Below, in pieces: positions 5,075 through 49,389 of a stretch of DNA of 64,000 nt. Made by a program: the position numbers and the translations under genes. Every line of letters begins with the position of its first letter. Position 1 is the stretch's first letter. The notes beneath the pieces were generated by a model that saw only the letters and a program-made list of their open reading frames with translations, did not search any database and was not told where the DNA came from. The DNA lies in contig OZ025265.1 in NCBI GenBank assembly GCA_964019135.1, positions 20,001,143 through 20,065,142 of the forward strand. Direction: 5' to 3'. This DNA comes from Arenicola marina (lineage: Eukaryota; Annelida; Polychaeta; Arenicolidae).

Positions 5075-5564
5075 TGTCTTGATATCTAGGTTACTCATCA
5101 CAGGGTACTTTAAGTCCTACAGCCAGGAGGCTATAAACACAACAACTACGTCTCGTACGTAGTGGAGGGCGCGACCGGCTTAACTCCAAGAGTCCGTCTA
5201 GTTGGTGTCTTGCGATCCGGTTGGATAATTCTATACAAAACAAATAAAGGGCCTCAAAGTGTTTGTATTTGGTACTAAAGTAGGCCACACAAATCTGTAG
5301 TTTTGTCGTCTACTTATCGTAGTTGGTCTATATAAATAGTTGGTCTATATAAATGAATATAAATTGTACTGAATCTGCTCAATATTGACTTTGAAGTTTT
5401 AGGATTATGCATTGACCAATGTTAGAGCTCGCTTAGGATTACAGTACGATAGAGCTGCCTGTGGGCCGATAGAATAAACTAAACCATAACAACATCTTAC
5501 AGCTAGGATTGTGCGATTATGCCATCAACGGTCTCTACAACTAAGGGTTTAAACATCCCAAACT

Positions 5565-5755
5565 CCCAAATATTCTAGCGACGCCAACAAAACGACGCGA
5601 AATATTCTAGAGACGCCAACAAATTGATGTCAAATATTCCGGTAACGTCAAACAATGACGTCAACTATTCCGGAGACGCAAACAAAATGACGCCAACTAT
5701 TCCGGAGACGCCAACAAAATGACGTCAACTATTCCAGAGGCGCTCTTCAGCAGTT
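5565..5755. repeat. Minisatellite, about 35-bp period, with TGACGTCA sites
   Basis: About five imperfect units built on GACGCCAACAAAATGACGTC plus AACTATTCCGGA. Two units hold the perfect palindrome TGACGTCA (CRE-type). The array lies roughly 500 bp upstream of the start codon of the minus-strand Shisa-like gene. Whether it is regulatory is unknown. Confidence 0.6.
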
Positions 5756-12602: not shown

Positions 12603-15600
12603 TCATATCTTGGACTCAGCAGAGAGCACCATGTGTTTATTAATGCTTTCCATAGAGGGCGCTCCACACAGTTGGGCTGTGTTAATAAATTGTTTCGTCA
12701 GAATCTCCAGAATGTGTCGCGCGCCTTGTTCACCGCTGTTTGCAAGACCATACACCAGAGGGCGTCCCACGAACACCATCCGGGCACCTGACAAAAGAGA
12801 CGACAGAACCGGTTAAAAAAGCTGAGAAAACTGATATTTCCTTTTAAGAATTTAACCCAGGAAAGGCGTAGTTTAATTTTATATTCACTGCGTTACTCTG
12901 GTTATATGATGATACGGATTTTACCATTGATAATTGCATTCGGTGGCAAAGGATTAGAAAATAAAACATATTTGTTTATTGTAACTTTTTAGTTAACTAA
13001 CCCCTCTCTCAGTAGAGCAATTACCAGTGCGATGATTTGTATTGACACAATAAGCAAATCGCGCAATACAACACTCGGATGTAATTCCGCACCTGACGGT
13101 ACCTTTGGCCGATGTTTCCTCTGATATTTTAAAGGCGAAATCTGCTGGATTCTTTAGTATCGCACGAATCATATCACAAACATGGATGATGTACAGCTTT
13201 TAATTAGCCATGTTAGACTATGGATGTAGCCTCGCCCTAGTTAAATCAACCACGGACATGTGTGTTATAGTTTAGCAACGGCTGTAAATCATCTAATGGT
13301 TCATGCCATATAAAGCATGATGACGTCACCATAGTATCTATTTCGTTATCCATAGCGACGGCTTTGAAAACGTCGGGAGTATTACGATATATGGCATTAT
13401 AACGTCACAGCGGTATCTGTTCCGTTACCCATAGCAATGGCTTTGGAGATGTCGGAACCATGACAATATACGGCATTATGACATCACAGTTGCATCTGTT
13501 CCGTTACCCATAGCAATGGTTTGGAGATCTCGGAACCATGACAATATACGGCATTATGACATCACAGTAGTATCAGTTCCGTTACCCATAGCAATGGCTT
13601 TGGAGATGTCGGAACCATGACAATATGCGGAATTATGACTTCACAGTTGTATCTGTTCCGTTACCCATAGCAATGGCTTTGGAGATGTCAGGACCATGAC
13701 AATATACGGCATTATGACATCACAGTTGTATATGTTCCGTTACCCATAGCAATGGCTTTGGAGATGTCAGGACCATGACAATATACGGTATTATGACATC
13801 ACAGTGGTATCTGTTCCGTTACCCATAGCAATGGCTTTGGAGATGTCAGGACCATGACAATATACGGCATTATGACATCACAGTTGTATCTGTTCCGTTA
13901 CCCATAGCAATGGCTTTGGAGATGTCAGGACCATGATAATATACGGAATTATGACATCACAGTGGTATCTGTTCCGTTACCCATAGCAATGGCTTTGGAG
14001 ATGTCGGAACCATGACAATGTACGGCATTATGACATCACAGTGGTATCTGTTCCGTTACCCATATCAATGGCTTTGGAGATGTCGGGACCATGATAATAT
14101 ACGACAATAGTTACCCATAGCGATGGCTTTGAAGACGTCGGCTCCGGTCCGGATTCCCCCATCCATGAAGATCTCCAGATTGGTGTCCTTGGCGGCCTCC
14201 ACGATGGATCCCAAGACGTCAATAGACGCCGGAACGCCGTCTAGCACCCTGACAATAAAACCTTGGTGTTTTAGGGCCAGGATACATCCAGGGGCAATGC
14301 AATGGGGTGGCATAAAACATACTTCGACAAAGGTGCCAGGGTGTAAACCCAGGACCTGTTGGTCTGCAGGTCTGTGCGGCTGCCATTGAGATAGGAAGGC
14401 ACTCTGCTAGGGTAGCAAAATACAAACCAAAGATAGATGGTGTAACACAAAGCATAAAGCATGTTCGTCGATAAGGTAGGCCCCTATATCCTTTGTTTTG
14501 TTAATTTCTCCAAAATTAAGAGCAATGAAACTGTCGTAACAAAAAGAAATGTAATGTCTCATATCCCTTAAACCGCCAGACCTAGACTACCGTAGAGCCG
14601 CCTTTCGGTTTTCACGCGGTGTGTATTTGCAGGCCCCGAAATAAGGATTTAAATCTAAAGCTTTGCTGTTTTCACTCGATCCTTTTCAGGGGAGGATCCC
14701 ATGATAGCCTTCTGGGTGGCCTCTTGCACTAAGCATGAAATGTGGGGCGATGTGCTGTGCATAATATGTTAACTTTACAAACGGTCTCTTGGCTGACGAA
14801 AAGGTTAATACGTGAAACAAGATCTATATACCCTTTATGGCTATAGGCCACCATTTTGCACACATGGAGCTGAATCGGGTCATATTGACGGGAGATTGAA
14901 ACGGATCCACATACACACGAGGTTCAAGTCTGAAACCAAGCTCCCCGCGCGGTGGCGCTACGCAAGCTAGCTTTTACCGCTGCTCTCGGCCGGGGGCAAA
15001 TTTCAAGATTCTTGACAAAAAGTCAAATCAGCTGTAATTTCTTACAACATTATAATTTCAAGAATAAAACATAAAAATAACGAGTCTTGTGTATGTAATA
15101 CAACAAAAAACATCTTGTACCCTGTCGAAAAAATTATAATTGTGACAGAACTCTTTCTTTTTATCACCTGATTGTATGTGTTATTAGGCTTAGGCTGGGT
15201 CCCAGCACTAATTTGTAGAAATGCGCGACGCATTTTTCCGATCGATTTGCGCAGCGCCGCTCTGGCGAGCGAGTGTGAAAATGCACGTATTGAGGACGTA
15301 GGTGACAACAGATATATAATGAAGCCCTAGCGGAGTGAGACGAAGGCAGAGAGTGGTCTGAAATCTGTTGATTTGTAGGTCTAACGTTGACATGCAGGTC
15401 CACCTCCACCCCCTCCCCCTCCTCTACCAACATGAATTACAGTCTGTATTTAATTAATGGCGTTCCAATCGCTTACCTTCCGCCGTGGTTAGACACCAAT
15501 ATCCCATCCACCCCGGCGTCGACCGCTCTCGCCACCTGCCGGGAATTCAGCAACCCTTTCACAATCACCGGAAGTGATGTATGCCGCTTGATCCAGGCCA

Positions 15601-16672
15601 AATCCTCCCAGCTCTGGGCCGCATTGACCAGCTTCATTTGATAAGCCATCGTCGAGTTACTGAAGTTGACATCGATCATCTGAGCCGGTATACTTGCCAG
15701 ACCCCGGTGAGCGTTGTAACGGATGCTCCCGACGGGCCTGTCAATTGTTACCACGATCCCGGCGAATCCTGCGGCCTCAGCACGGCGGATGAATCTCAGC
15801 GTCTCATCCCGCAGGGCCCAGGGGTAAATTTGCTGCCATTTTGTCGCCCGCGGAGCTGCGGTAGCCACGTCCTCTATCAGACTGGACGAGGAAGCGCTGT
15901 GGATGAAAATGGCGCCCATGGCCTCCGCTGCGCGCGCAGATGCCAGCTCTCCTTCCGGGTGAGCCCACCGCTGCGGATAAAAGAATGAAGTGAAATACAT
16001 ATCATGCTAGGATTACACCGCTTTATGATGGTTCATTATCATAATAACAAATTATGATAATAATAAAATGAATGACAATAATGAAATTAATGACAATCAT
16101 AAAATGAATGACAATAATAAAATTAATGACAATAATAAAATTAATGACAATAATAAAATTAATGACAATAATAAGACGCAAACGATCAGTAAAACTAATG
16201 ATCATAATAACATTAATAATAATAATTAAATTCATAATAATAACCACATTTAAGTGACCAACGCTCTGATTTCCTTACCTTCCTTAAGAAGTAAATTTTA
16301 TTGTCGCAATCGCATGATATTGCTTATTAAACACAATAGAAGAAATTATTTAATAATTACTTTGATTCATTGTTAAAACGAATGCGTATATCACTTGCTT
16401 TCAGAGTATCTATATGGGACAGTGCTTACTTGAAATGCAGTTGGAGCGAAGCCAACAGGTGTTGTTATGTGTCGACCAAACACAGTGACTGAAGGCTGAA
16501 AACTGCTGACATTGACCATGTAATTTGGCATTAGCCTGTAGCGTTGGAAGGCCGCCATATTGTTCACGAAAGTCGTCTGCTCCGTCGCTCCATCCTCAAA
16601 GTAGTTCCAGGCATTCGCGTCCAAGTGAGCATGCGCAAAGTCACGGAAATCCGAAACCGACACAAGTTTTTC
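12603..16672 (-). CDS. HAO1-like: 2-hydroxyacid (glycolate-type) oxidase, copy A, first exon not found
   Basis: Four minus-strand exons join in phase: 16672-16430, 15970-15477, 14248-14115 and 12787-12603, giving 351 residues. The family is the FMN-dependent alpha-hydroxyacid oxidases, which oxidise 2-hydroxyacids to 2-oxoacids with release of H2O2 in peroxisomes. Visible signatures, in order, are YFEDGA (active-site Tyr), QIYPW (FMN-contacting Gln and Tyr), VTIDRPVGSIR (substrate Arg retained), IVKG (Lys), SNHGGR (catalytic His and substrate Arg), DGGIRTGADV (FMN phosphate site) and FVGRP. The C-terminus is SKI, a peroxisomal PTS1 signal identical to the end of human HAO1. The Trp of the human active-site lid (SSWAT) is Ser here, so substrate range may differ. 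The initiating exon, a few codons, was not located upstream. Introns carry the 79-bp minisatellite, repeat R2 and AT-rich arrays. No stop or frameshift was seen. Confidence 0.9.
13290..14110 (-). repeat. 79-bp minisatellite copying the exon end and 5' splice site of HAO-A
   Basis: The motif GTTACCCATAGCAATGG recurs at 13345, 13424, 13503, 13581, 13660, 13739, 13818, 13897, 13976 and 14055, so the period is 79 bp (one unit 78). The array abuts the real splice donor of the exon at 14248-14115. Read on the gene strand, each unit contains GCCATTGCTATGG/GTAAC, nearly the same as the true exon end GCCATCGCTATGG/GTAAC. About ten near-copies of a usable 5' splice site therefore lie directly downstream of the genuine one. 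Confidence 0.92.
14935..15365 (+). repeat. Interspersed repeat R2, copy 2, in a HAO-A intron
   Basis: Matches the repeat at 11660-12160 and the reverse complement of 57765-58165. It includes AGGCTTAGGCTGGGTCCC and a distal block with GCGCAGCGCCGCTCTGGCGA. It lies between the 494-bp and 134-bp exons of HAO-A. Confidence 0.7.
16030..16235. repeat. 18-bp AT-rich minisatellite in a HAO-A intron
   Basis: Units of AATGACAATAATAAAATT, near-perfect in the centre and decaying at both edges. It lies between the 243-bp and 494-bp exons of HAO-A. Confidence 0.8.
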
Positions 16673-16839
16673 CTAAAATGGGACGACCGGAATATCAATC
16701 GAAAAGGAATCCATTTATTGAAATTCGAGATGAACAATCAACATAGATTTTAAATATTTAAAATTAAATATCCGTTTAAATGATTAAACACACGTAAAAT
16801 CGTTATATACATATCCTTAAATGCGTTGAACACATGTCC

Positions 16840-17052
16840 AATTACCTATATTTTCAATTATTTATACAACTTTCAAATTATTTATACAACTTTCAAATTA
16901 TTTATACATATCTCAAGTTATTTATACATATGTCAAATTATGTATACATATGTCAAGTTAATTATATATGTACGTCAAGTTATTTATATATGTATGTCAA
17001 ATTATTCAAACATATGTCAAATTATTTTTATATGTATGTCCAATTTTTTTGA
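16840..17052. repeat. AT-rich minisatellite, about 20-bp period
   Basis: About ten units of the type AATTATTTATACATATGTC, upstream of the first located HAO-A exon. The overlapping open frames rich in Tyr, Ile and Asn are products of this repeat. Confidence 0.75.
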
Positions 17053-18534
17053 CATATGACAATGCGAATTGAATTAGACCCCATATAAAATGAATTAAAC
17101 AGATGAAAACTGATTTTGACATTAAGTCCATGCTGCATCAGTTTAATTCAGTATACGAATTATGCCAATCTGACTAAACGTGCAAATCATTTTCACATAT
17201 GTCGAATGTATATACCTGTATATATACGCTATTAGGAAGCTAGCAAACTCAACGCCAGGGAAAATAAATGACCAATTTTTACTGATGCCGAGACTGACAT
17301 GGACGAGATATTCCACAAGAATGATGAAATTGTGATTTTCTCGACTTTGCTAACAATTTTGATTGACACAGCCTTTAAGACTGAGAAATGAAATGGAGAC
17401 TTGAAATGGAGAGAAAATGTTGTCTCCGAAACAATATGGTCACGATCAGTTAAATGAGATTAAAATGGACTTTGGCTTTCCATGACTTGAGTGCAGACCC
17501 CGTCTTATGAGTCAGCAGATGTCGTAACTAGATATGTCCTTAGATAAATTAAAATGCTAGGTTTTGTGAACGTACATGGAAGCAGCTATGTGGTGCAGTG
17601 TAGGAATACAGCCCTTTCCAAAATGAAGGATACCCGGTACCCACTGTACGCATGCGCCTGCCCATAACTGCAGATACGGCCAACCAAAGATGGCGGAAGG
17701 GAGTGTCAATTGAATATTTTATATGTCGCTTGTCATTGGAAACTTACCTTGCATCCGCTCTAATTAAATGGTAATAACGTCATGAGTTTCATTCTGCTTT
17801 TAATTCATCGTGACATGGGAATAAATTTTTTAAATTATTAAATCATTATATCCGTCATATCACTGTTGAGGGGGCGATGTTTTTCACGAAACTAAGAAGC
17901 AATGACTTCCAAAATTTCTACTTCATCCACGCCTTTCCACTCCTACCCTACCCCCTGGGGCTTCACAATGACGAACCGTTGTGTCCACAATGTGGCTCAT
18001 GTATTCGTCGGGCAGCGCAATTGACACAATAGTCAATTCCTGTGTCCAAACGTGAGCACATGTCATGCCTTGTTATAACAATTTTATAAGTACGTTAAAG
18101 AACTCGCTGTCGTGCATTCCCCAAATAAACCACTCGACGCTATCGCGTCTCGTGCTTTATTTTGGCGAATGCACTCCAGCTCGTTCTTTAACTAGTACAT
18201 AGAGAACAAAAACACAAGCATCTACCTACCCATCGCAGCCCCCACCCACCTACCTGCTCCCAACATATAGACCCCTAAGTCGCTCTGGACTATTTCTAGC
18301 TATCCAATGCAAACAAGATAATGAGGGGATTAGAATGTGGCACCCCCAGCCAGCTTAATTGGTTATGTCTGGTTATTTGTCGGGTGGGGCAGGAAGGGCC
18401 AGGGTGGTTTCGAGGGGGGTCGGATCTCTACAGTAAGACTGCAGTGGCGAGTTTCCGTATATGATACAGGCGACATGGAAAGTATGACGATCAATTGAAG
18501 ATCCAACAGGCCCAGTGAACATAGCAAAGTAATC

Positions 18535-18690
18535 ATCAAAAGTAATCATGATTACGATTACATTAGCAATGTAATCGATTACGATTACGATTACATTGCC
18601 TTAAAAACCAATGTAATCGATTACGATTACGATTACTTGAAAAATGTAATCGATTACAATCGATTACGATTACTGATTATGATTACCCCA
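18535..18690. repeat. GATTAC-rich simple array
   Basis: Repeated ATTACGATTAC and AATGTAATCGATT motifs in both orientations. It can fold back on itself. No further function is evident. Confidence 0.7.
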
Positions 18691-20712
18691 TGTCTGCTGG
18701 GAACACGACCCCCTTTAAATCCCCCCCCCCGCCCCCGAATTGTACTATAGGACCCCGTGTGCTGGCGGACACGGTACTGATTATGATTAACGGAGGGGAG
18801 CTCTCGTGACTGTACTGATCTCTACAGTTACTGTCGGGCCCCAACCTTTTCAGATATATAGCATCAATATGGCAGTTAAAACCCCATCGTCGGGTAGCTG
18901 ACAAGATTCAGATACGGGCATCCTTGCAAAAATCTGCAAATGCTCTAAAAATGCAAATAACAGTGCTACAAATTAAAGCACAACAAACATGCCAAAGTTA
19001 TATATGGAAGGGACAACACAGATGACTACCCAATGACACATTTCTTATGGATGTACCGCGAATTGGCATTTCAGCTGACATATCTTCCGCCATCTTTGGT
19101 TTACCGTATCTGCAGTTACGGTCCGCCGTGTACTTGCTTGCGTACAGTGGTTACCAGCGGTCTGAATCGGACAGGCAGGCTGCTTGCCAGCAAATGCGCC
19201 ATCTTGCTACAGGTTAATCAATATTGTTCTCACCATGTTCACGGTTGCTTATGGCAGGACGGATACTTTATATACATCCATGCATCTCCGTGTTTGTGAT
19301 GACTGCCTTAGAGACAAATGCAAATACGTGCACCAGGGTTGGGTTGCGGAGCACGGTCGACTGCCGATCGACCGCCTCAACTGGAGTAGTCCCGCATCAT
19401 AACATTAAACAATGGACGACGATTCTTCTGAAATACGTGGGGATAACGCGTAAATATCGATGCATAATAATTAGCCTTTATCTAACAATATTTTACACTA
19501 TTTAGAGTGTCCTGTAATTTCCAAATTAGGGTTAATTATTTGGTGGATATGCCCGGTGGACAAATTGGTAGAGAGATACATACGGCGTCTATTCATAAGC
19601 CGACACCACGAGTCATTGCGTAACGTTCTCGGTTGTATCACACGGAGCGAATTTAATGCCTATGACGCCATCTGCTTTTCGTGACCTACATAGAAGCGTT
19701 ACGCTTTCTGACCTGTTAACGGGTACGCATCATAGCCCGGGACAATTTCGACAATATCTTCTAGCTAGTTCATGCTTCAGGGTCTGCGGCCATCGAGAGA
19801 GACGATACTGAACAGATTCATTGTTAGTATTGACTGTCTATAAAAGAGGGAACGCAAAGGAATTTGCCGAATGTAATCGGCCGTCTGCAGCGGCAATGCA
19901 ATGGCTTGTCTCCCAATATGTAGAGGGGGATGGCGGGGGGGGGGGAGGGGGTACCTTTTGCGATTTCCACGATTGGCATCCAGGAATTTTTGAAGATTCG
20001 CGATTAGCTGCCGTCAATTTCTGGGGCTCATTATAATATCCATACAATTCCTGGTTCAACGCGAAGACACTTTCCCTATTTACCGCGATATTCGATATTA
20101 CACACTCCCTAATTTTTGGGTATTCACGATTCATAGGATCCCCCCCCCCCCGAGCGACGTGGATGGGATTCAGTGGTTTATAATTTCAGCAACTCCAGTC
20201 TCATGCCCCGATGTTCCTCCCAATACAGCCTTGCCGGTTATGCCTGTGAAGGGGAAATCTAAACCATCAATGGCTCCTTTGAACTAACGTGCGTTAGTCT
20301 GTAGCCTGCTGACTGTAGCATAACAGTCGCCATAGGCATATTACGGCTTACAACACTTAAAAACAGGCTTCAATATAGGCTTAAGTATCTATGTTAAATT
20401 GAAATTTATTTGGAATTCATTTCTTCTCTGGATGGTGCCGTATAGACAGCTGGTCCAACACTGCATACAGTTGGACCAGTTTGACTGTTACTTGATATCA
20501 TCGGTTTTTACACGTATTCTGTATTCAGGAGTACCAGTATTTTAGCATTAATCATAAAAATATATTGCGAGGCATAGTAGCTCTTTGGTCTCTTTGGTGG
20601 CAAAATAGAGTTTTCAAATGCGTAATATACGATTCAATGACTGTAATTTTTTAAATGGTTTCACATTATTGATTATGCAATTTTTTTCTATGGCCCAGCT
20701 GCATGTTGTTTG

Positions 20713-20862
20713 CAGGGGCGGATCCAGAAAGTCTGGATAGGGAGGGGGGGGGGGCGGTTTCAGGGTCGGATCCAGATATGCTGATATAAATTTCGGCCCT
20801 AAAACAAGGGGAGGGGGCAGGGCCGGGTCGCCCCCCCCCCCTCTGGATCTATGCCCCTGCAA
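20713..20862. mobile_element. Short inverted-repeat (MITE-like) element ending CAGGGGCGGATCC
   Basis: A 150-bp segment starts CAGGGGCGGATCCAGA and ends TCTGGATCTATGCCCCTG, its imperfect reverse complement, with internal poly-G and poly-C tracts. The same terminus appears near 21472, 33990, 35016, 36495 and 58250. The CAGGGG/CCCCTG ends resemble hAT-type termini, but I found no clear 8-bp target duplication, so the superfamily is an inference. Confidence 0.6.
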
Positions 20863-21471
20863 TAGGCCTTTACAATCTAGGTCCAAAGGGACTTTCAATA
20901 TATTAATCGCAATATATTGCTCCATCCAAATAGAGTACCCGTTAATTTTATTCGGGAGCACTATTAGAGATATTTACCAGTGTATCATATGACGCTCTGA
21001 AGCATCTAGATATAGTCAGAGGCGATCATTCGAGTTTCGTGACGTAAATGTGAGTTCCCGTTTGAAGAACGTGTTCTACCATTAAACCGGAACCTACGTC
21101 TACTTCACTCTTCTATAAACGTTACGAGATAATTTATCCAGAAGCTGGCCTTTAACTTGTAATGTAATATAAAGTTTAGGTTTTTTTGGCACTATGAACG
21201 TTTAATAAAGTCTACTTCCATATTTATTCGCCAAATAAATTTGAAAATCAGCATATCTGCCGATTCATTCATAGGTTCAGTGATAATATACAGTTGATTG
21301 AAACTGAGCAGGCAGTTTGACTGAAGTTAATACCGAAAATAACTAAGAATTCTCAGTTATTTTTGTTGTGCTCATATTGTAGTGACAGTTCCAGGCTCAT
21401 ATGATGGGTGCTGTGCCGCTACAAGTGGATGCATTATATGAAGATGACCTGATGTTGTTACTATTAACCCA

Positions 21472-21626
21472 GGGGCGGATCTGGGATTTTAAAAAGGGGA
21501 GTTGCGACCTTGGGAAAGGGGGCTCTCTAAAAACAAGTTGCGACTGGGCGGGGGCATGAATGACTGCGGGATTTTACAACCGTTTTTTTTTTAACATCCC
21601 CTTAAACACCCTTTTGATCCGCCTCT
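21472..21626. mobile_element. Short inverted-repeat (MITE-like) element of the same family
   Basis: Starts CAGGGGCGGATCTGGG and ends GATCCGCCTCTG, an inverted repeat, with G-rich and T-rich interior. Another copy of the family seen at 20713-20862. Confidence 0.55.
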
Positions 21627-23228
21627 GGGTTGTGTCTACAAAATGTCCCTTTTCAATATCTTTCATTGGAAAACCCGACTTTTACAGTTTATGCTCAAGT
21701 TCCCAAGGGGCGGGGGGGGGGGGGGGTGCAACCCCCTTTCCGTTCTCAAACGAATTTTCCGTTTGAGAACGCCAGCGCGAGCAAAAAATTATCGGGATGC
21801 GTATCGTGAAATCATTCCTGATATTGGGCGATAGGTTTTACAAAATGGGGTTAGCTTTTATCGACGTTCTCATACACTGTGTGATCGGTTCGTCAATTGT
21901 ACCTTGTGTGTCCGGCATCGACCGTTACAATAACAACATATGCCTGTCATTTTCACAAGTTTTTATTTCCGACTTGCTGAAATAACCAACCGCAAATATT
22001 GCAAGGAAATCATATTTTTGCTACAATATCGGATATGGAGAAACACTTGGGACAGGTACTGCACCACCCTTTTGTTGCAAAGCTGGAGGTAAAATGCAGC
22101 TTTGTCTTCAGTTACTTCATACTTCACTTCATATCTCACTTTGTATCATCTCGGCGTCTTCTGCAAAACCCAGTCCAGTAACTGTACTTGCAAGGCCAGG
22201 ATCAGTCATTATTTCATTAACTTCAGTGGCTTCCAGCATAGTTTCGCTATTTTTAATGTTTTGTTAGAAAAGAAACCGTGCGGCCTGCAATAGTAGCTGA
22301 CCTCTGTTTATAAGTATTGATGTTGCATGGTTATATTACATCTTTGAGCTCGCTAAGAGAGAAAAGTGCTACCACAAAGCTGACAGAAGGATATATCATA
22401 TAGACATCTTTCTTTTGTCTTAAAGTAGAAGTAGCATTACATAGCAATATCGGGTGCAACTAACCTTTTAAGGCAACTTGATTAGATTTGCAGTAGTTTA
22501 AAATAATACATTTATACAAATACAACAAAGAAATAGTGACGCAATGTTGCACAATTCTACGTGAGGGTCTGTACAGGAGTCAGCACGGAGCATGTGGAAC
22601 GTGAACATTGCCACAACACTTCGCTTGAAACCACATGTCTCAGCCCGGAATAACATGTCTGCTATAATTCCTAATGTAATTCAATATACAGTCCCGTAAG
22701 CAATATATACATATCAAACAGGGGCGTGTGCAGTAATCCTTGAAAGGGGGGGGGGTGGAGCACAAAGAAAAAGAGATGACGACCGGTGGGGGGGGGCGTT
22801 TGAACAAATTTGCTGAACAGATTTGCGACCAAGGGCACAAAATATGAAAAGGGGGGACAAAGAGCCCGACCCCCACAGGAAACGCCCATGTCAAACGAAG
22901 ATGAAGGACATGGACGTTTCAACAGTTTTCCCTAATTATGACGAAACACATGCTTCACCCGTTTCAAATTCTCTTTTGGATTACGCAATTTACAATCATA
23001 GAGTTTATGATTAACGAATATCGATTTTACCATTGGTGGGGAGAGCTTTACTCATATCTGCGACACATGTTGTCTCAGTGTACACGTATAATAACAGTAA
23101 GTTATTAGCCACCAATGTTTTTCATATACCAAAACAATATTGACTCAATAATCGCATAATCACCCATATATGGCCATAATATTTGATGCTAGCTTGGTCA
23201 GTATTCACCATGTCATACCGCGTGTTAC

Positions 23229-23267
<39 letters not shown>
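23229..23267. repeat. (TTA)n microsatellite
   Basis: About 13 perfect TTA units. The overlapping open frames on both strands, with runs of Leu or Asn, are artefacts of this repeat. Confidence 0.9.
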
Positions 23268-23817
23268 ATGGTAAACGATCACAATGTGGATATATTGACA
23301 TCAGCATGCAATCATTGAACAAAACAACATCTTTGAGCAATGGAAACCTCCACAATGAGTTGCATTTGGTAAATGTCGCTCATTTAATCCATCTGGTGAT
23401 GCTGGTGTAAGAGTGTCTTCAGTTTAATATTGACCAACTGAAACTGTATTATTGTGAGTTGATGGTCGTGTTACCTTGTACAGTAGCGTTAGATCTGACG
23501 GCGGCTAACATAGAGTAACCTGACCCAATCCGCCTTGTGGCCCATTCAATAGACAATTTGTTGCCATGGTGACATTGCATAGAAACATGAACATTATTGT
23601 TATTATTATTATGTTTTTTACAACTATTATTTTTAAATGGGTTTGAACAGATCATCTTATTCTAGGAACAATGATTCCAGAAGGACTTTACTCTCATTCT
23701 CCTTCCGATGACGTCATTGATACACGGAAACCGTCTGTCCATTCCACGGTCGGATTCACAAGGCATAGTTCATTAATTAATTGCTGACTCCAGTTCTGGC
23801 ACTTGGTGTGGATTCCA

Positions 23818-23957
23818 CGTCATCAGTTCCGACCTCTGACATCATCAGTTCCAACCGCTGGCGTCATCAGTTAAGACCTCTGACGTCATAATTTCCGATC
23901 TCCGACGTCACCAGTTCCGACCTATGACGTCATCAGTTCCAACCTCTGACGTCATCA
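23818..23957 (-). repeat. 22-bp minisatellite with TGACGTCA, overlapping the HAO-B coding end
   Basis: Between six and seven units of about CTCTGACGTCATCAGTTCCAAC, with phase markers at 23824, 23846, 23868, 23890, 23912 and 23934. Three units contain the perfect CRE-type palindrome TGACGTCA. The unit nearest the gene is read through by the last exon of HAO-B, supplying its final codons and its TGA stop. The array therefore forms both the C-terminus and the start of the 3' UTR. Confidence 0.85.
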
Positions 23958-26540
23958 AGAGAGGAGACCATGCCTCGCCGGATATGTTCCGTAGATGGCG
24001 CTCCACACTGCTGGGCTGTGTTGCTGAACTCGGTGGTGAGAATGTCCAAGACTCTCTCAACCCCAGTCTGGCCCTCGTGTACCAGTCCGTACACCAGAGG
24101 GCGCCCCACGAACACCATCCGGGCACCTGGGGGACAACAACATGTAGATGATGACGTCACGCGATACATTTAAGTGGAAATATGATATATGTATTGCATT
24201 TCAATGCATTTAGCTTTATTATGATTTGCATTAAAGTGTTCGTGCCAAGAGTTTGTCTTGCTCAGAGTTAGCTTGGTGTAGGGAAGATAAACAAATAACA
24301 ATTTGTTTTAATGGAAACTTACATTTTCTATTCCAACATATCACTAAAAACGCGTTCGTCAAAGTAGCAAAAGTGAGATCCGGCGGGTTTATTCTGGGAG
24401 CATTGCATCTGAGCGTTACTTGAAAATTCCCCAATAATGTCACAAGATTGACAGGTGAGCTTTGATGCAGTGTGTAGATATCTGTAGACGAGGGCCTGTA
24501 TTGTTTTATGGTTGGGTGCGTTTCGTTGAGTTCAAGCCAATGAGCAGAAAGAATCTAAGTCTCAATATAAAAGCACATGCGTTTGTATTCTCCTTTGACG
24601 TCACTCCTCGCTCGCAGAAGTTAAATTGGTAGGTGCGAAAAAAAAGTGGAAAAAGTATTTCCTTCTACTATTTGGGGCGTTACAGCTCGATAATATAAGC
24701 GTGGAAACACAGAAGATTAAAATGAGCTGAAGTTGTTTTGGCGTGGCACGAACATTTTAATATATTGTTGTTATCATTGTGAATATTTATTAATATACTG
24801 TTGTTATTATCGTGAATATTTGTTAACATTATCATTGTGCATATAATAATCATACTTATTATTAAAAGTATTGCAATATTAAAATGGTTTTGGCAGTCTC
24901 GTTAAAAGGGTCCTGACTAGTTAGTAAGCAGGCTGAGTCACAGATCACTATGTCATGGGTCCGCGCCCGCCGCTCACACAGCCCCAATTAGTAGTCCTGG
25001 TAGATTACTTGATCAAGTTGACTTTCTTGTTCACACAAGCGGCACAAAACACGAACATGTGCATAATACCCTCTCCCCTGTCCACAGAAAAATCTAGTGG
25101 TGCGTCCCTCAGGAACTCAGGAATCCCACATAGAGTTTTTACTACCGTACCGAGAGCCAGAGCCTTGAATACGTCCGTGCCCGTCCTGATCCCCCCATCC
25201 AGGTAGATCTCCAAGTCGGTCTCTTCAGCCGCCGCCACCGCGTCCGGCAGCAGATCCAGAGAGCCAGGCAGGCCGTCCAAGGATCTGGAACCATTACAGG
25301 AACGTCGTTGCTTCTGTCGGGCAACCATGTAGCATACAGGGCCGCCCCGATAGCCCAGTGGGTTAGAACACTCGTATTGACATTGAGCTCTTTAATGGCA
25401 CGTGGATGGGGATGAGGGTGAGGACGGGGACGGGAACGGGGACGGGGACGGGGACGGGACGGGGACGGGGACAAGACGGGGACGGGGACGGGGACGGGGA
25501 CGGGGACTGGGACGGGGACCGGGACGGGGACGGGGACCGGGACGGGACCGGGGACGGGGACGGGGACGGGGACGGGGACGGGGACGGGGACGGGGACGGG
25601 GACGGGGACGGGGACGGGGACGGGGTTGTCATGGAGATGTCATGGGGATGTCCGATATTTCATATTTACGGGGAGGCGGGGAAGGGTTGTTACCCAAGTA
25701 TACCGCTTGATCTTTCGGCAAACACTTGAGCCACGAATTAGAAGACAAGGAGTGAAAATATAATGCTAAATACCGAAACGCACTGATCGCTCACCTGCCA
25801 CCGTGATTGGACAGCAAGACGGCCTTGACCCCTAGGCGGGCCGCTTGATAAATGTCGTCTAATTCCAACGGGCCTTTCAGGACGACAGGCAGGCGCGTGA
25901 GCTTGAGTACCAAGGCAACATCCTCCCAGGTCTGGGCCGAATTAGTCCAGGGACCGGATATATTCATAGCCGGATATACGTCATCGGGTACCATGGCAAC
26001 GCCGCGCTCGTCGTTATACATGATTCCCGGCACGGGGGAGTCGATGGTGATGACGACGGCGCCGTATCCAGACAGCTCGGCGTGACGTAGGAAGGACGCC
26101 GTGTCCGCACGGTGCGCGAACGGATATATCTGGATCCACTTCGTGACGTCACCCGCTGCCATGGCAACGTCTTCCATAGTGGTCGACGACTGCGCGCTTT
26201 GGATGAAAATAGTATTCTTAGCCTGGGCTGCGCGCGCCGCCGCCACGTCACCGTCTCTGTGGGCCAGCGTGAGAAGAGGGACAGGGGACAGACCGATGGG
26301 GGTGTCATATGTCTTTCCGAGGACGGTCACAGACGGCGTGAAACCCGACACGTCGCGGAGAAGCTTGGGGCGGAGTCGGTAGCGGCGGAAGGCAGCCATG
26401 TTGTCCCGCAGCGTCTCCTCCGAGAGGGCGCCACCCTCGAAGTAGTTGAGGGCATCTTCGTGAAGTCGCTCGTGCGTGTAGAGACGGAAGTCTCCCACTG
26501 ACACAAGGCGTGTCGTCAGAGCTGGAGGCTGGGCTTCCAT
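23933..26540 (-). CDS. HAO1-like: 2-hydroxyacid oxidase paralogue B, complete, without peroxisomal signal
   Basis: Three minus-strand exons join in phase: 26540-25795 (start ATG in good context, in-frame TAG two codons upstream), 25284-25151 and 24126-23933, giving 357 residues against about 370 for human HAO1. It has the FMN alpha-hydroxyacid oxidase fold: Tyr33 in YFEGG, Q137-I-Y139, T165 and D167, Lys222, the SNHGGR active site (His246, Arg249), DGGIRTG (278-284) and VGRP. The 134-bp middle exon has the same length and phases as in HAO-A, but the long first exon is continuous where HAO-A has an intron after the codons for AFQ. Odd points: the residue matching substrate Arg167 of human HAO1 is Met174, and the C-terminus is RGWN rather than a PTS1 tripeptide, because the end is encoded by the 22-bp repeat. 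FMN binding and a TIM-barrel fold look intact. Loss of peroxisomal location and altered substrate are inferences. Confidence 0.9.
25405..25630. repeat. (GGGGAC)n hexanucleotide array in a HAO-B intron
   Basis: About 37 near-perfect GGGGAC units on the plus strand, with occasional GGGAC and GGGACC variants, inside the 510-bp intron between HAO-B exons 1 and 2. The G-rich strand is the template strand, so the pre-mRNA carries (GTCCCC)n. G-quadruplex formation by the template strand is plausible. Long Gly-Asp, Arg-Gly and Ser-Pro open frames here are repeat artefacts. Confidence 0.93.
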
Positions 26541-26579
26541 GGGCTAAACACCGAACACATAATAAATTACTAACCACGG

Positions 26580-27410
26580 TTACCGTTATTACGTTATAAT
26601 TTCCAAATAACTATCAGCTACCCATGGCACATTTATGGTGCAAAATTTTTATGCTATTTTACCGTGCCGTTAAAAAAATATTCTTCAATTTACATTTTAT
26701 CCCCATTCCACAAAATAGTTCTTTGGAAAGCTTAAACCTAGAGCAGCGCAGAAATGATATTAATTTCCTTAAATAGTTCCCATAAAAATAACAGAATGCT
26801 AATAATATAGTGCAATTATGCAAAATCAGTTTTTTTGCCAACATTCAAAATCACTACCTTCACAAAATTGGCTATAATTTCATCAAAAATGAAAGTCTTG
26901 ACACCAAACCACATTTGAAAACTTCTACAAATGTAGTTCTTGTAACAAAAATAAAGAAAAACATGGTAGCCGTGCAAATTGTCCTAGAAACAAGCCCTGA
27001 AACTTGAAAATGTTATTTCACCGATATTTCCCGGCACAGCTTCCTTCACATCAATTCTCATTAATTTACGCCTCGTATTTCACATTTTAATCAATCTGGT
27101 TATATATAATGGTCTAAAATATAATTATGATATACACTAATGTTTTCTGAACTATATACACGTTTTCTCGACTTTTCTATATGGCACTACATATAGTTAG
27201 GTACATACATATGTGCCGCCCAAATGACCCCTTTTTTCTCTCAATCCCCGATACAGAAATTAACAATTTCTCTCGATATCTGAGACTGACTTTTTTTTCA
27301 CACTTGCAGTTCTTCACTATATAGTCTAATGACCACGTAATGCGTCGTCAACAGCCTGTATAAACAATGCCTGATCCACTATCGTCAACCCCTCCAGGTT
27401 CAAACTGGTC
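26580..27410. other. AT-rich intergenic stretch upstream of HAO-B
   Basis: No exon supported. It should hold the HAO-B promoter, but no element stands out. The sequence GTGTTTAG directly before the HAO-B start codon resembles an acceptor, so a 5' UTR intron reaching into this stretch is possible. Confidence 0.35.
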
Positions 27411-27415
27411 CCCGA

Positions 27416-28569
27416 TTAAATCAGCAGTTGGTGTAAATTCGGTGTTACTTCAACTTCTTCGTCCGATTCGCCAGAAATTATTATAGCTTCCGGTGGTAGT
27501 AATCGTCTAAACCTACTGGTCGCTTCATCGCCGGTGACGTCATCATCCGTGCACTGAGGCGGGTGCCCATGGCAAATTGGGTGGTCGTGCAAAACTGCTT
27601 GAAACTTCACCAATGTATGATTAAAAAATCTATATTCTGTGTAATGTTTAGTTAATTCCCTATAGTTTAACTGGAAATGTAAATGATATGGGCCCGGCAT
27701 TTCCCTTTAAGACTGCTTAAACTCCCCGCGTTACAGCTCGCCGATGTTTGCCGATGTTTACCAAAGTCTTCTCTAAATCGCCCAGGCTTATTATGGGTGG
27801 CTTACATTAAACGAAATGTTGGTGTTTTAGGCCGCTTTAGTGCGCAAGAAGGCTAAATTAAACAGGAAGGACTAAACTTCTCAGGATTAGAATGAAATGG
27901 GATTGGACGGGATTCACGAGCCAGGGTTTGTACCTAAACACAGTTGATCTGCAGCTCAGCCTGTACACCAACTAAGCTACGGAAACTCCTACACGATGTA
28001 AAAAAAGCTGATTTAATATTCTAGCATTTCAGGGAAAATACCACATTAGATGTTACAATCGGATCTTGGTGGCCATTAAACCAATCCCGTAGCACCGGGA
28101 TTCGTTTATGATCAATACATTGCTTCTTTACGAAAGAAAGCAGATATGGGATAAAACAGAAAAAGGTAAAATTATCCTCAAGGCAAGTTTTTCACCCAAG
28201 CTGACATGACAAACGAAATCACCTCTTCCTATGCATTTTTAATGCACTTCTTTATCAATGACATACACAGTTACACCCACATATATCCCGAGCAACATAT
28301 TAAGATATCGGTGGCAACAACCCGCAAAACATGGCGAAAGTGATATGAATGTACTCACGTAGCTGATGACGGATCTGGGTGTAGGCCAGGGCCGATCGTC
28401 ATGGTGTTTGACGACGACAATTGTGATGATGACGGTGGTCGCAACCAGGAGGAAGGACACGAAACCGACCACGAAGAAGATTAAGCCGTTGCAACGGAAC
28501 CAGTGACAGTACCGACTGCCGCCGCCGGACTTGTACTTCTGCTCGTAAGGGTATTTGTCCTCGTCCATG
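27416..28569 (-). CDS. Small type II single-pass membrane protein, family not recognised
   Basis: Two minus-strand exons fit in phase 0: 28569-28359 (acceptor TATTTCAG, one base, then ATG at 28568; donor TAC/GTGAGT) and 27670-27416 (acceptor TTACATTTCCAG). They give 154 residues. Residues 1-28 are hydrophilic and presumably cytosolic (MDEDKYPYEQKYK start). Residues about 29-53 form a strong hydrophobic span (GLIFFVVGFVSFLLVATTVI), followed by VKHH. The C-terminal half has one N-glycosylation site (NHT), three cysteines and an acidic tail (SGESDEEVEVTP). I do not recognise the family. Further exons between the two cannot be excluded. The first coding exon is the source of the large minisatellite immediately upstream. 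Confidence 0.6.
27920..28000 (-). repeat. tRNA-derived SINE-like fragment in an intron
   Basis: The minus strand reads GTAGCTTAGTTGGTGTACAG followed by GAGCTGCAGATCAAC and a GGTACAAACCC B-box-like end. It resembles the fragment at about 60588-60655 and, more weakly, one near 24905-24960, so a tRNA-derived SINE family is likely. Confidence 0.45.
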
Positions 28570-31500
28570 CTGAAATACACATATTACATGGGACAATTGT
28601 TCAGCTCGTAAGGGCATTGGGAGTTGTGAATGCTGAAATACACATATTACATGGGACTTTTGTTCAGCTCGTAAGGGCATTGGGAGTTGTGAATGCTGAA
28701 GTATACGTATTACATGGGACATTTGTTCAGCTCGTAGGGGCATTGGGAGTTGGGAATGCTGAAGTATAAGGGGACATTTGTTCAGCTCGTAAGGGCATTG
28801 GGAGTTGTGAATACTGAAGTATACGTATTACATGGGACATTTGTTCAGCTCGTAAGGGCATTGGGAGTTGTGAATGCTGAAGTATACCGGGACATTTGTT
28901 CAGCTCGTAAGGGCATTGGGAGTTGTGAATGCTGAAGTATACATATTACATGGGACATTTGTTCAGCTGGAAGGGGCATTGGGAGTTGTGAATGCTGAAG
29001 TATACCGGGACATTTGTTCAGCTCGTAGGGGCATTGGGAGTTGTGAATGCTGTAGTATACCTATTACATGGGACATTTGTTCATCTGGTAGGGCCATTGG
29101 TCTTCGTCCATACTGAAATACACATATTACATGGGACATTTGTTCAGCTCGTAGGGGCATTGGGAGTTGTGAATGCTGAAGTATACCGGGACATTTGTTC
29201 AGCTCGTAAGGGCATTGGGAGTTGTGAATGCTGAAGTATACATATTACATGGGACATTTGTTCAGCTGGAAGGGGCATTGGGAGTTGTGAATGCTGAAGT
29301 ATACCGGGACATTTGTTCAGCTCGTAGGGGCATTGGGAGTTGTGAATGCTGTAGTATACCTATTACATGGGACATTTGTTCATCTGGTAGGAGCATTGAT
29401 CCTCGTCTATGCTGAAATACACATATTACATGGGACAATTGTTTAGCTCGTAAGGGCATTGGGAGTTGTGAATGCTGAAATACACATATTACATGGGACT
29501 TTTGTTCAGCTCGTAAGAGCATTGGGAGTTGTGAATCCTGTAGTATATCGGGACATTTGTTCAGCTCGTAGGGGCATTGGGAGTTGTGAATGCTGAAGTA
29601 TACCGGGAAATTTGTTCAGCTCGTAAGGGCATTGGGAGTTGTGAATGCTGAAGTATACCGGGACATTTGTTCAGCTCGTAAGGGCATTGGGAGTTGTGAA
29701 TGCTGAAGTATACATATTACATGGGACATTTGTTCAGCTGGAAGGGGCATTGGGAGTTGTGAATGCTGAAGTATACCGGGACATTTGTTCAGCTCGTAGG
29801 GGCATTGGGAGTTGTGAATGCTGTAGTATACCTATTACATGGGACATTTGTTCATCTGGTAGGGCCATTGGTCTTCGTCCATACTGAAATACACATATTA
29901 CATGGGACTTTTGTTCAGCTCGTAAGGGCATTGGGAGTTGGGAATGCTGAAGTATACCGGGACATTTGTTCAGCTCGTAAGGGCATTGGGAGTTGTGAAT
30001 GCTGAAGTATACGTATTACATGGGACATTTGTTCAGCTCGTAGCGGCATTGGGAGTTGGGAATGCTGAAGTATACCGGGACATTTGTTCAGCTCGTAAGG
30101 GCATTGGGAGTTGTGAATACTGAAGTATACGTATTACATGGGACATTTGTTCAGCTCGTAAGGGCATTGGGAGTTGTGAATGCTGAAGTATACCGGGACA
30201 TTTGTTCAGCTCGTAAGGGCATTGGGAGTTGTGAATGCTGAAGTATACATATTACATGGGACATTTGTTCAGCTGGAAGGGGCATTGGGAGTTGTGAATG
30301 CTGAAGTATACCGGGACATTTGTTCAGCTCGTAGGGGCATTGGGAGTTGTGAATGCTGTAGTATACCTATTACATGGGACATTTGTTCATCTGGTAGGGC
30401 CATTGGTCTTCGTCCATACTGAAATACACATATTACATGGGACATTTGTTCAGCTCGTAGGGGCATTGGGAGTTGTGAATGCTGAAGTATACCGGGACAT
30501 TTGTTCAGCTCGTAAGGGCATTGGGAGTTGTGAATGCTGAAGTATACATATTACATGGGACATTTGTTCAGCTGGAAGGGGCATTGGGAGTTGTGAATGC
30601 TGAAGTATACCGGGACATTTGTTCAGCTCGTAGGGGCATTGGGAGTTGTGAATGCTGTAGTATACCTATTACATGGGACATTTGTTCATCTGGTAGGGGC
30701 ATTGATCCTCGTCTATGCTGAAATACACATATTACATGGGACAATTGTTTAGCTCGTAAGGGCATTGGGAGTTGTGAATGCTGAAATACACATATTACAT
30801 GGGACTTTTGTTCAGCTCGTAAGAGCATTGGGAGTTGTGAATCCTGTAGTATATCGGGACATTTGTTCAGCTCGTAGGGGCATTGGGAGTTGTGAATGCT
30901 GAAGTATACCGGGACATTTGTTCAGCTCGTAAGGGCATTGGGAGTTGTGAATGCTGAAGTATACCGGGACATTTGTTCAGCTCGTAAGGGCATTGGGAGT
31001 TGTGAATGCTGAAGTATACATATTACATGGGACATTTGTTCAGCTGGAAGGGGCATTGGGAGTTGTGAATGCTGAAGTATACCGGGACATTTGTTCAGCT
31101 CGTAGGGGCATTGGGAGTTGTGAATGCTGTAGTATACCTATTACATGGGACATTTGTTCATCTGGTAGGGCCATTGGTCTTCGTCCATACTGAAATACAC
31201 ATATTACATGGGACAATTGTTCAGCTCGTAGGGGCATTGGGAGTTGTGAATGCTGTAGTATACCTATTACATGGGACATTTGTTCATCTGGTAGGGCCAT
31301 TGGCCTTCGTCCATACTGAAATACACATATTACATGGGACAATTGTTCAGCTCGTAAGAGCACTGGGAGTTGTGAATGCTGAAGTATATCGGGACATTTG
31401 TTCAGCTCGTAGGGGCATTGGGAGTTATGAATGCTGAAGTATACCGGGACAATTGTTCAGCTCGTAGGGGCATTGGGAGTTGTGAATGCTGAAATACACA

Positions 31501-32745
31501 TATTACATGGGACAATTGTTTAGCTCGTAAGGGCATTGGGAGTTGTGAATCCTGTAGTATACATATTACAGTGGACATTTGTTCAGCTCGTAGGGGCATT
31601 GGGAGTTGTGAATGCCGTAATATACATACTACAGGGGACATTTCTTCAGCTCGTAAGGGTATTGGGAGTTGTGAATGCTGAAGTATACATATTACATGGG
31701 ACATTTCTTCAGCTCGTAAGGGTATTGGGAGTTGTGAATGCTGAAGTATACATATTACAGTGGACATTTGTTCAGCTCTTAGGGGCATTGGGAGTTGTGA
31801 ATGCCGTAATATACCTATTCCATGGGACAATTGTTCAGCTCGTAAGGGCATTGGGAGTTGTGAATGCTGAAGTATACCTATTACATGGGACATTTGTTCA
31901 GCTGGTAGGGGCATTGATCCTCGTCTATGCTGAAATACACATATTACATGGGACAATTGTTCAGCTCGTAAGGGCATTGGGAGTTGTGAATGCTGAAATA
32001 CACATATTACATGGGACTTTTGTTCAGCTCGTAGGGGCATTGGGAGTTGTGAATCCTGTAGTATACATATTACATGGGACGTTTGTTCAGCTCGTAGGGG
32101 CATTGGGAGTTGTGAATGCCGTAGTATACATATTACAGGGGACATTTGTTCAGCACGTAAGGGCATTGGGAGTTATGAATGCTGAAGTATACCTATTACA
32201 TGGGACAATTGTTCAGCTCGTAAGGGCATTAGGAGTTGTGAATGCTGAAGTATACCTATTACATGGGACATTTGTTCAGCTGGTAGGGGCATTGGGAGTT
32301 GTGAATCCTGTAGTATACATATTACATGGGACGTGTGTTCAGCTCGTAGGGCATTGGGAGTTGTGAATGCCGTAGTATACATATTACAGGGGACATTTGT
32401 TCAGCTCGTAAGGGCATTGGGAGTTATGAATGCTGAAGTATACCTATTACATGGGACAATTGTTCAGCTGGTAGAGGCATTGATCCTCGTCCATGCTGAA
32501 ATACACATATCACATGGGACTTTTGTTCAGCTCGTAAGAGCATTGGGAGTTGTAAATGCTGAAGTGTAGCGGGACATTTGTTCAGCTCGTAGGGGCATTG
32601 GGAGGGGTGAATGCTGTAGTATACCTATTACATGGGACATTTGTTCAGCTGGTAGGGGCGTTGGGAGTTGTGAATGCTGAAGTATGTATACCTATTACAT
32701 GGGACATTTGTTCAGCTCGTAAGGGCTTTGGGTGTTTGAATGCTG
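28570..32745 (-). repeat. 4.2-kb minisatellite (63/55-bp units) copying a splice acceptor and exon start
   Basis: About 70 tandem units of two length classes, 63 bp and 55 bp (the short form lacks 8 bp around ATATTACAT). On the minus strand, units contain GTGTATTTCAG followed by a stretch matching the first coding exon of the adjacent membrane-protein gene. Several still read ATGGACGAAGACCAATGGCC (exon: ATGGACGAGGACAAATACCC), while most have drifted to CATTCACAACTCCCAATGCCC. Landmark blocks at 28874, 29173, 29645, 30180, 30479 and 30951 show spacings of 299, 472, 535, 299 and 472 bp. This gives a higher-order period of 1306 bp, arithmetically 12 units of 63 plus 10 of 55. A G/C-rich GCGGATCC element interrupts the distal edge near 32770-32970. 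Confidence 0.95.
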
Positions 32746-35700
32746 ACAATGCTAAATTACATGATACATTCAGGCGCGGATCCATGAGGGATCGCCTTTT
32801 TTTTTAGGAAGAATGCCGTTTTTCAATTGAAAATTTTAGCTAAATGTAGGCCATATAGGGCGTGGACTCCCCCTTCCCCCGCCCCTCTTTCTCTGAGGCA
32901 ATTTTGTGGAACCGCGGTTGCAAGTTTCTTTTTAGAGCCGCCCCCCCCGGCCACCCCGGGCGCAAGTTTCCGATGGTTGTGGTGAATGCTGACATACACC
33001 GACATGACTTGGAACATACTCGGCTGGTAATGATTCTTGCTGTAATATGACATGAGTTTCATACTCTGATGGAATGTAGCTTTAGTTGTCGACATTTACG
33101 CAAACCGTGTTTGCCATGGATGGCATAGCCTGTATTGTGGAATTAAGGGAACATATACAATGATTGCCCTTAGCTTTGTTGATTTAATCTTGCTCCAGGA
33201 TTGTGGGGATGACAAATCTGTCTGAATAGCTATTTGTGTACCTAGAACATAATTTACTGTATATGTATCTCTTACTGCTTTGCAAAGTTCTTTGTAAAAG
33301 AATAACTTAATTAAATGCGACCTGAATTAGACAAACTAGATATTAGTAATTTAAAAAAAGATGAGTTGCCATTTCAGGACAAATAGCACGCGAGATATGC
33401 GTTATTCAAACCTCAGCTTACATTAAGTGTTCAATCTCGAAGGTAAGGTAATAATGTTTTTATAGTTGTTGTTTCCTCCGATAACTACATTACAGCATTG
33501 TATTACGTTCTTATGCCCGATGTCTAAAGCTCCTTGAGCTGCATCATGGATCATATGCAACATATCGGTGTTACCCATTCGGACCGATTTGGCCTTACGA
33601 CAGGCGGGGAGTGTACAAACGTGTCAGCATCACTATACGAGAGCTTCCATCAACACTGTAGTCACTTATTGTGATATACCATTACCTTTCAAGCGTGCAA
33701 CAAACAATTGACACATAACATGCAAGCCAACTTGCCACGTTCTTCACGAGCCAAAAGGCATAACGAAATTATTAAACATTACAAGATTACTTGCAAATAG
33801 GAGGATGCCATATGTCGACTCATGCGCGACGAATTATAATTGCAATTATTTTCACAGCGATAATATGTGGTAATTACGATCTGTATCGTAACGTCTTTAT
33901 TTGGAATCAGTATATTATGTTTTGGAGTATGCAGTACTCCGTTGATACGGCGTGATTAGGGTTGTAAGTGAATGATACGGTGACTAGCAGGGGCGGATCT
34001 AGGAATTTGAAAAGGGGGGGTCCAAACTTGCGACCGGAGGGGTGGGGGAGGCTCTGAACAAAATTGCGGGGGATGGGGGGGGGGGGGTCCACGCCGCCTC
34101 AGATAAGTAAATTTTTGCATTGAAAAACGACATTCTTCCTCATAAAAGGGGGGGAGGTCCGGATTATAGAGAAAATGCATATAATTAACGAATTTTTACG
34201 GAATCATGACAATAATGGGCGTCCATGGAGAATGAGAAAGAGGGACAGGTGGCATACCTGCTCCCTGGTGATTTCATCGGGAGACACGGGGGAAAATTGC
34301 CAAGTTAAGTATTTAAAATATCCGTGAAAAACACACGTTATCATATGACTAGAACAGGAAGACAAATTTCTTGCAAAATATCAGCGTAGCAGTTTTTTAG
34401 GAGAAGAAATATCAGTAATTATCGATTTATACAATGGGCAGTAGCCGTAGGCCTTAATACACCTGTAAACCTGACTTCTGCGGACTTACCTGAATACTGT
34501 ATACGCGCTACACGGTTCAGCGTTCACTCAGTAAAATGGCAGTCTCACACTATGTTCTCAGAACCAAATACAAACATTTATCTCGCTGAAGTATTAAACG
34601 CAAATTCACAACAAACGTGAGACGTTCGATTCAAGCGAGGGATCGAGGCCTAATTAGGTCACCGGTCTGTTTGTTTGTGCCTTAAGTGCGCGCGCATGCA
34701 GAGAGCGGTACACAGCTTACATGGTGTAGATCTGAGGCCAATGGCTGCGAGAGGTGAAAGTCCCCCTCGTCACGGCGAGATAAGAACGGACTCAGCTCGA
34801 GGGGGTTGATCTACTAGCCTCCGCCCGTCCCCCCTCCCCTCCTCCCCTCTGTCAGGGTCATGTTGGAGGCCTACCACAGGACAGGTACAACCACACATTC
34901 GTCTCACAACATCTCGTCAACATCTCGTCACGGTGGGACATTAATGCACACAATATTCAGTAGGCGGCGCGTCGAACGAACGTGGCATCAACATGTTTCT
35001 AATTCGAGATAACAGGGGCAGATCCAGGAATTTGATAAGTGGGGTGATCCAAACTTGTTACCGGGGGGGAACAAAATTGGGACACCACAGTATCCATCAA
35101 TCTTGATCGACCAACGTGGGGGGGGGGTCCACTTAAAACTTGCGACCGGGGGTGGGGGGAGGATGTCCGGACCCCCTGGACCCCCCCTTGGCCCCCCGCC
35201 ACCTGGACACGCACTTGTGACAAAATTGCAAAAAGATGCAAACACGTGAACCGGTGGCTTCACGTGAACCAATCGTTCCAGTAGTCGTACCATCACAGAT
35301 TGAGATCGCAGAGTTTTCTGTCAACCAACTGACAACTGTGGGGAGCATTTTCTCTAAATTTTTTCACCGACAATAGATGGGTCATTGTCAGACAAAAATG
35401 CATTTGCGTGTCCTTGGGCTCCCTAACGTTTTCGCGTTATATAGCAACATAGCAAGCATATCTATATTATGAGTAAGGGACGTAATTTCCGTTGTGTAGA
35501 AATTTAAGATATATATCCGCTTATATTTACAAATTACATTCGACAAGCATACAATTATAGCAAAAAGTTCTTGTCTCAGCCAAAGGGTTTGTTCCGTCAC
35601 TGTTTAAACAAAACACTCCTGTTTTTTTCCTATTTCATTTAGGTTAGAATTCGTGAATCGTCTGCTACAGTCTCTCGTTGTATAAACTTTTCAAGCAGCG

Positions 35701-46642: not shown

Positions 46643-46868
46643 TGTTACGTTGCAAAATGTTCACCCGTTGCATTATGTCCGCCCGACAAAATCGTTGCAT
46701 TATGTCCGCCCAAAAATCAATTCGTCGTTGCAAAATGTCCGCCCGGCAAATATCGTTGCATTATGTCCGCCCAAAACTCAATTCGTCGTTGCAAAATGTA
46801 CGCCAAGTGCAATATGTCCGCCCAAAACTCAATTCATCGTTGCAAACTGTCCGCCCGTTACAGTCGTT
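46643..46868 (+). repeat. Outer arm array, left (GTCCGCCC units)
   Basis: About eight to nine units of roughly 25 bp built from CGTTGCATTATGTCCGCCCA and CAATTCGTCGTTGCAAAATG. The inverted counterpart is shorter, at 50235-50353. Confidence 0.82.
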
Positions 46869-46887
46869 ATGTGTCGGTTGGTTAAAA

Positions 46888-47455
46888 GGGGTCAATCTGG
46901 ATCTGAGGTGTCAATCTGGATCTCATGGGTCAAATCCAGATATGTGAGGTCAAATCTGGATCTGAGGGGTCAATCTGGATCTGAAATGTCAAATCTTGAA
47001 CCATGGGTGTCAATATGGATCTAAGAGGTCAAATCTGGGTCTGAAGGGTCAATCTGGATCTGAAGGGTCAATCTGGATCTCAGTGGTCAATCTGGATCTC
47101 AGGGGTCAAATCCGGATATGTGGGGTCAAATCCGGATATGTAAGGTCAAATCTGGATCTGTCGGATCAATCTAGATTTGAGAGGTCAAATTTGGATCTGA
47201 GGGATCAATCTGGATCTGAGGGGTCAAATCTGGATCTAAGAGGTCAAATCTGGATCTGAGGGATCAATCTGGATCTGATGGATCAAAAATGGGTCTAAGA
47301 GGTCAAAGCTGGAGCTGAAAGGTCAATCTGGATCTTATGGGTCAATCTGGATCCCATGGGTCAAATCTGGATATGTGGGGTCAAATATGGATCTGTCGGT
47401 TCAATCTGAATCTGAGAGATCAAATCTGGATCTGAGGGGTCAATCTGGATCGTCT
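46888..47455 (+). repeat. Inner arm array, left (TCAATCTGGATCTGAG units)
   Basis: Nearly 30 imperfect units of about 19-20 bp, GGGTCAAATCTGGATCTGAG and close variants. The inverted counterpart is at 49390-49845. Confidence 0.85.
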
Positions 47456-49380: not shown

Positions 49381-49389
49381 ATTGGCCCC

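Follow-up and report, generated by a model that had tools for sequence, protein, structure and literature searches.

The window analysed here, a 64,000-nucleotide stretch of an 867-Mb genome (G000:C20:20001143-20065142), contains two hydroxyacid oxidase genes, HAO-A and HAO-B, both on its minus strand. The FMN_dh domain (PF01070) of the HAO genes exceeded the curated cut-off in a profile search, and the best relatives of HAO-A and HAO-B among solved structures were hydroxyacid oxidase 1 chains, which we take to be human. HAO-A (12603-16672) has exons at 16672-16430, 15970-15477, 14248-14115, and 12787-12603, and its predicted protein ends in ...AESKI. Since the first exon found has no in-frame start codon, we infer a further exon upstream, which was not found. 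Two hydrophobic frames upstream were considered as a membrane exon of HAO-A and rejected, as no sufficiently strong phase-0 donor is present in either. HAO-B (23933-28568) has exons at 28568-28359, 26543-25795, 25284-25151, and 24126-23933, which give a continuous frame of 428 amino acids; the acceptor of exon 2 was missed by the automatic edge caller and was set manually by inspection of the sequence. Intron 2 of HAO-B carries a 34-copy (GGACGG)n array (25422-25625).

The sequence-only reading had counted three neighbouring genes in this region, taking the exon at 28.4 kb for part of a third. This exon (28359-28569, minus strand) combines a 3' splice site, a start codon, a predicted membrane helix, and the donor AGCTAC/GTGAGT, and it is single-copy in the genome (next matches at E values of at least 0.19). 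As modelled at 28568-28359, it ends in phase 0 and runs on in a continuous frame into HAO-B exon 2. Judged by strand, phase, and frame, the presumed third gene is HAO-B's own predicted first coding exon, and the number of genes is two.

Several other features were recorded in the window. The palindrome TGACGTCA occurs 20 times, compared with 0.89 expected from base composition, and 3-9 times in each of five other 10-kb loci (L027-L031; 0.15 expected). Two tandem arrays at 46666-47451 recur, by eye, in reverse complement at 49381-50348, like the two borders of a mobile element of ~3.7 kb (46666-50348). On the minus strand, a stretch of P2X7-type intracellular domain lies at 43173-43718 and an open frame for a rhodopsin-type receptor at 61198-62370.

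Intron 3 of HAO-A is occupied by a 79-bp minisatellite (13308-14103, minus strand), which the sequence-only reading had described as copying the end of exon 3 together with its 5' splice site. That description was confirmed. Exon 3 (14115-14248, minus strand) ends in ...DVFKAIAMG, and a 30-mer spanning this end (24 exon and 6 intron bases) is present in 11 copies including the real one. In ungapped comparison, eight of the 10 intronic copies match at 26/30 positions, one at 25/30, and one at 21/30, whereas the best of 200 shuffled 30-mers reached 19/30; the poorest copy, with nine mismatches, carries by eye a one-base deletion. The donor motif GGGTAAC is intact in 9/10 intronic copies. Four sites distinguish the exon from the common interior unit, and at three of them the unit farthest from the exon has the exon base, which fits array ends escaping homogenisation. 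Exon 3 codes for a stretch that is conserved in this family, as seen in the alignment to the hydroxyacid oxidase 1 chain, so the direction of copying is from exon to array. A reading frame continued past exon 3 into the intron reaches a stop at 14067, ahead of the second donor, so that the full HAO-A protein can come from the first donor only. The 79-bp unit had no match outside the HAO-A locus in a genome search that skipped very common words.

The second array covers 4.2 kb next to the HAO-B first exon (28567-32746, minus strand). Its 69 units, of which 44 are 63 bp long, 22 are 55 bp, and three differ from both lengths, repeat a 3' splice site and an exon start. Each 63-bp unit comprises 21 intron and 42 exon-like bases. 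The best of the 69 units matches the exon-edge 63-mer at 49/63 positions, compared with a maximum of 36 when the array was shuffled 30 times with its composition kept, in agreement with the earlier claim that the array at 28.6-32.7 kb copies a 3' splice site and the start of an exon. The exon part alone reaches 28/42 in the best unit; with gaps allowed, all 69 units score 24-29/41 over this part, compared with a shuffled mean of 21.7 and maximum of 27. What speaks for an exon-derived array is the match over the entire junction. The acceptor AG is present in 64/69 units, and the start GACGA is kept in nine of the 69 (six with ATG, three with ATA), which score 28-29/41. In a genome search of the same kind, again with very common words skipped, the 63-bp unit had no match outside the HAO-B locus.

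For the HAO-B first exon the direction of copying is not proven, and its unconserved N-terminus could be array-born, the last unit having turned coding. Roughly 14 codons at the N-terminus can be aligned to the unit; they are not seen in the part of HAO-A that was found or in the candidate first exon of a third paralogue, HAO-C, and the last seven codons of HAO-B are themselves array sequence. Nothing decisive speaks against this origin, as the nine units with an exon-like start and the restriction of the array to one locus are predicted by either direction; we consider it somewhat unlikely.

Those last seven codons (DDVRGWN) and the stop codon (23935-23933) are encoded by a 22-bp array at 23817-23957 on the minus strand. 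The sequence-only reading had also regarded this array as seeded from its exon. It does supply the protein end, but derivation of the unit from the adjacent exon is not supported, since related arrays exist elsewhere. A genome search with the array returned 20 matches, namely itself, 18 on contig C9 within ~2.2 kb, and one on contig C4, the relatives being 69-72% identical. Given these relatives and the HAO-A C-terminus, which is unlike the unit, the array supplied the HAO-B protein end and not the reverse; the coding 3' end of HAO-B may have been overrun or replaced by an array of a type that also occurs at other places in the genome. Of the three consensus units aligned to their exons, then, two span a splice junction and an exon origin of the third is not supported, and the idea that arrays tune protein ends holds only insofar as the HAO-B C-terminus is array-encoded. 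The relatives on C9 and C4 would also suit an origin of all these arrays as pieces of dispersed mobile elements inserted by chance at exon edges, but the 79-bp and 63-bp units, each confined to its own locus in the searches described above, argue against such an origin, which we regard as highly improbable.

HAO-C lies on another contig (L028, C14:8194001-8204000, positions 1955-5600 of the locus). A candidate membrane exon (MAIGVAL...TLPQ) with a strong phase-0 donor was found and is not joined into a full gene model; the stop codon falls, by eye, within the diverged first unit of a 29-bp array. Two features set HAO-B and HAO-C apart from HAO-A: a membrane exon, predicted in the first and a candidate in the second, and an end that falls within or next to a minisatellite. 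The predicted proteins end in SKI (HAO-A), GWN (HAO-B), and CST (HAO-C), so among the three a PTS1-like tripeptide is present in HAO-A alone; human HAO1 likewise ends in SKI. HAO-B and HAO-C may have moved out of the peroxisome, to judge from these predicted ends. HAO-C reads VILEG where HAO-A has VIVKG and HAO-B VVLKG, the lysine of the motif being replaced. A further FMN_dh match, with in-frame stops, lies on an 18-kb contig (C321:16169-17211) and is possibly a contaminant or a pseudogene.

Exon edges of other genes were surveyed at 43 loci of two families, each with 1.5 kb of flank, where 85 edges were called. The aldehyde dehydrogenases contributed 13 loci (all 13 listed matches; 13 of 96 candidates scored) and the chaperonins 30 loci of 49 matches, with 19 left out; AMP-binding genes (14 matches) lay outside the survey. 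A crude splice score, applied close to where HMM matches ended, served to call the edges, and the sample includes several exons per gene from just these two families. A tandem array lies across or within 25 bp of 16/85 edges, nearly one in five, compared with 3.24 expected from random placement and 5.99 when units were allowed to span the edge (Poisson P = 0.0005 against this larger value). In a reduced set of 77 edges, without three loci of paralogous copies (L039, L042, and L048) and one with a doubtful edge (L078), 17 arrays have an edge within 200 bp, and 13 of them cross it or come within 25 bp of it (P = 3e-5); seven are at 1-25 bp, compared with 1.42 at pseudo-edges (P = 0.0003). When the count was extended to 200 bp, no clear excess was seen (21 versus 17.0 expected under the first null, P = 0.11), so the surplus of arrays sits at the edge itself.

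Units that contain exon sequence, defined as array units matching at least eight exon bases, were less distinctive. They occur at 5/85 edges, compared with 3.18 expected from random placement (Poisson P = 0.22), and two of the five loci (L044, L054, L055, L064, and L073) have uncertain edges: in L044 the exon overlap is ~12 bases by eye and 33 as computed, and in L064 an in-frame stop lies inside the match. A probe of 20 exon and 10 intron bases had copies at 5/85 edges and at least two copies at 3/85; the corresponding counts were 9/1234 in the flanks of other loci and 0/82 at exon centres. HAO-A and HAO-B together have 14 splice edges, and two or more edges with exon-containing units among these are expected with P = 0.20 at the rate of 5/85, and with P = 0.086 at the stricter rate of 3/85 (two or more copies). 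The local cluster, which the sequence-only reading had offered as evidence in itself for a process acting at exon borders, is therefore not unusual at the survey rate. The proposal that exon borders favour arrays fared better for arrays near edges (16/85 versus 3.24-5.99) than for units that contain exon sequence (5 versus 3.18). In this sample, which is small, exon edges appear to act as anchors for arrays, and this preference is a more general result than the local cluster.

Plain chance would account for the cluster if minisatellites are so dense in the genome that some land on exon edges with no preference for them. The exon-containing counts and the cluster probability are compatible with this, as are the share of sequence taken up by arrays (12.7% in the window, 19.6% in the survey loci) and the other HAO genes, on contig C5, where an array lies within 25 bp of 1/20 called edges (gap 14); the corresponding count in HAO-C is 0/6. 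It speaks against chance that the gaps between array and exon peak at the edge, with 10 arrays at 1-25 bp in the 85-edge set compared with 1.82 at pseudo-edges, and we consider it unlikely.

Selection could also maintain arrays at these sites if repeated splice signals help or tune splicing, through G-rich sequence after donors and pyrimidine-rich sequence before acceptors. On the sense strand, donor-side arrays tend to be G-rich and acceptor-side arrays pyrimidine-rich, and the donor motif in HAO-A and the acceptor AG in HAO-B are kept in most units. However, neither composition trend reaches significance (P = 0.063 and 0.28), homogenisation alone would also preserve similar motifs, and an intron-side donor, if used in HAO-A, would lead into the stop at 14067, so that we regard selection as very unlikely. 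Composition was rejected as the cause of the edge preference on the same non-significant trend. The preference would be compatible with either mutational bias at splice-flanking sequence or survival of arrays at such sites; the composition trend that would point to mutational bias is the non-significant one.

We consider it highly probable that the two splice-site arrays are minisatellites of the 'mirage' type and that the 22-bp array is a different case. In both splice-site arrays, intronic tandem units span an exon-intron boundary (the HAO-A donor and the HAO-B first-exon acceptor), the terminal unit is the authentic exon edge, as placed from homology and reading frame, and splice signals recur in many units. 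A short segment spanning a splice junction would have been duplicated in tandem, with the copy joined to the exon keeping its function. As the authentic exon splice site would still yield normal mRNA, the intron-side copies would be free to multiply, homogenise, and drift. We infer a neutral process in which the exon-proximal sites are the ones spliced.

A broader and more tentative reading is that minisatellites preferentially arise at, or are anchored to, exon edges, that introns grow through amplification of their own splice junctions, and that some arrays rewrite coding ends, as in HAO-B and perhaps HAO-C; we see this as a real possibility that falls short of being probable. That ~6% of the surveyed edges have junction-spanning arrays, in a genome whose mitochondrial order is annelid-like, suggests a more widespread way for introns to gain length and for cryptic splice sites to increase in number; the attraction of arrays to exon edges also becomes a question that counting can address.

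The host is probably an annelid in the broad sense, because the mitochondrial contig (C762) has the order cox1, trnN (gtt), cox2, which is the annelid pattern. On this contig cox1 was identified from an HMM match and cox2 by eye, and trnN was found by ARAGORN in mitochondrial mode, with no tRNA in bacterial mode. An amphioxus host was considered and rejected, the order cox1-trnN(gtt)-cox2 being annelid-like instead; a GFP-family search of the genome gave no match, and its control was silent too. The same order is given for Sipunculus nudus in an excerpt of PMC2639372.

In searches of open-licence literature, the papers found to describe junction-spanning minisatellites dealt with amphioxus, and no paper was found that joined hydroxyacid oxidase with a minisatellite. 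A tandem duplication in potato RdRp likewise copies splice signals, according to an excerpt of PMC4974935; in contrast to that case, the units here lie inside existing introns and no new intron is shown. Intron 1 of an earthworm metallothionein gene also carries clusters of minisatellites in an annelid intron, and boundary-spanning units, present here, are not described in the excerpt of that paper (PMC12783039). The closest likeness is to the amphioxus 'mirage' minisatellites of Adh3, the globins BflGb6 and BflGb9, TnC, and PGBD5, which, as described in excerpts of PMC3087553 and PMC3902484, share the anatomy of the HAO-A and HAO-B splice-site arrays. The arrays reported here, known from genome sequence alone, differ from these in that one is longer (69 units), the mitochondrial genes of the host stand in an annelid-like order, and a preference of arrays for exon edges was measured in other genes.
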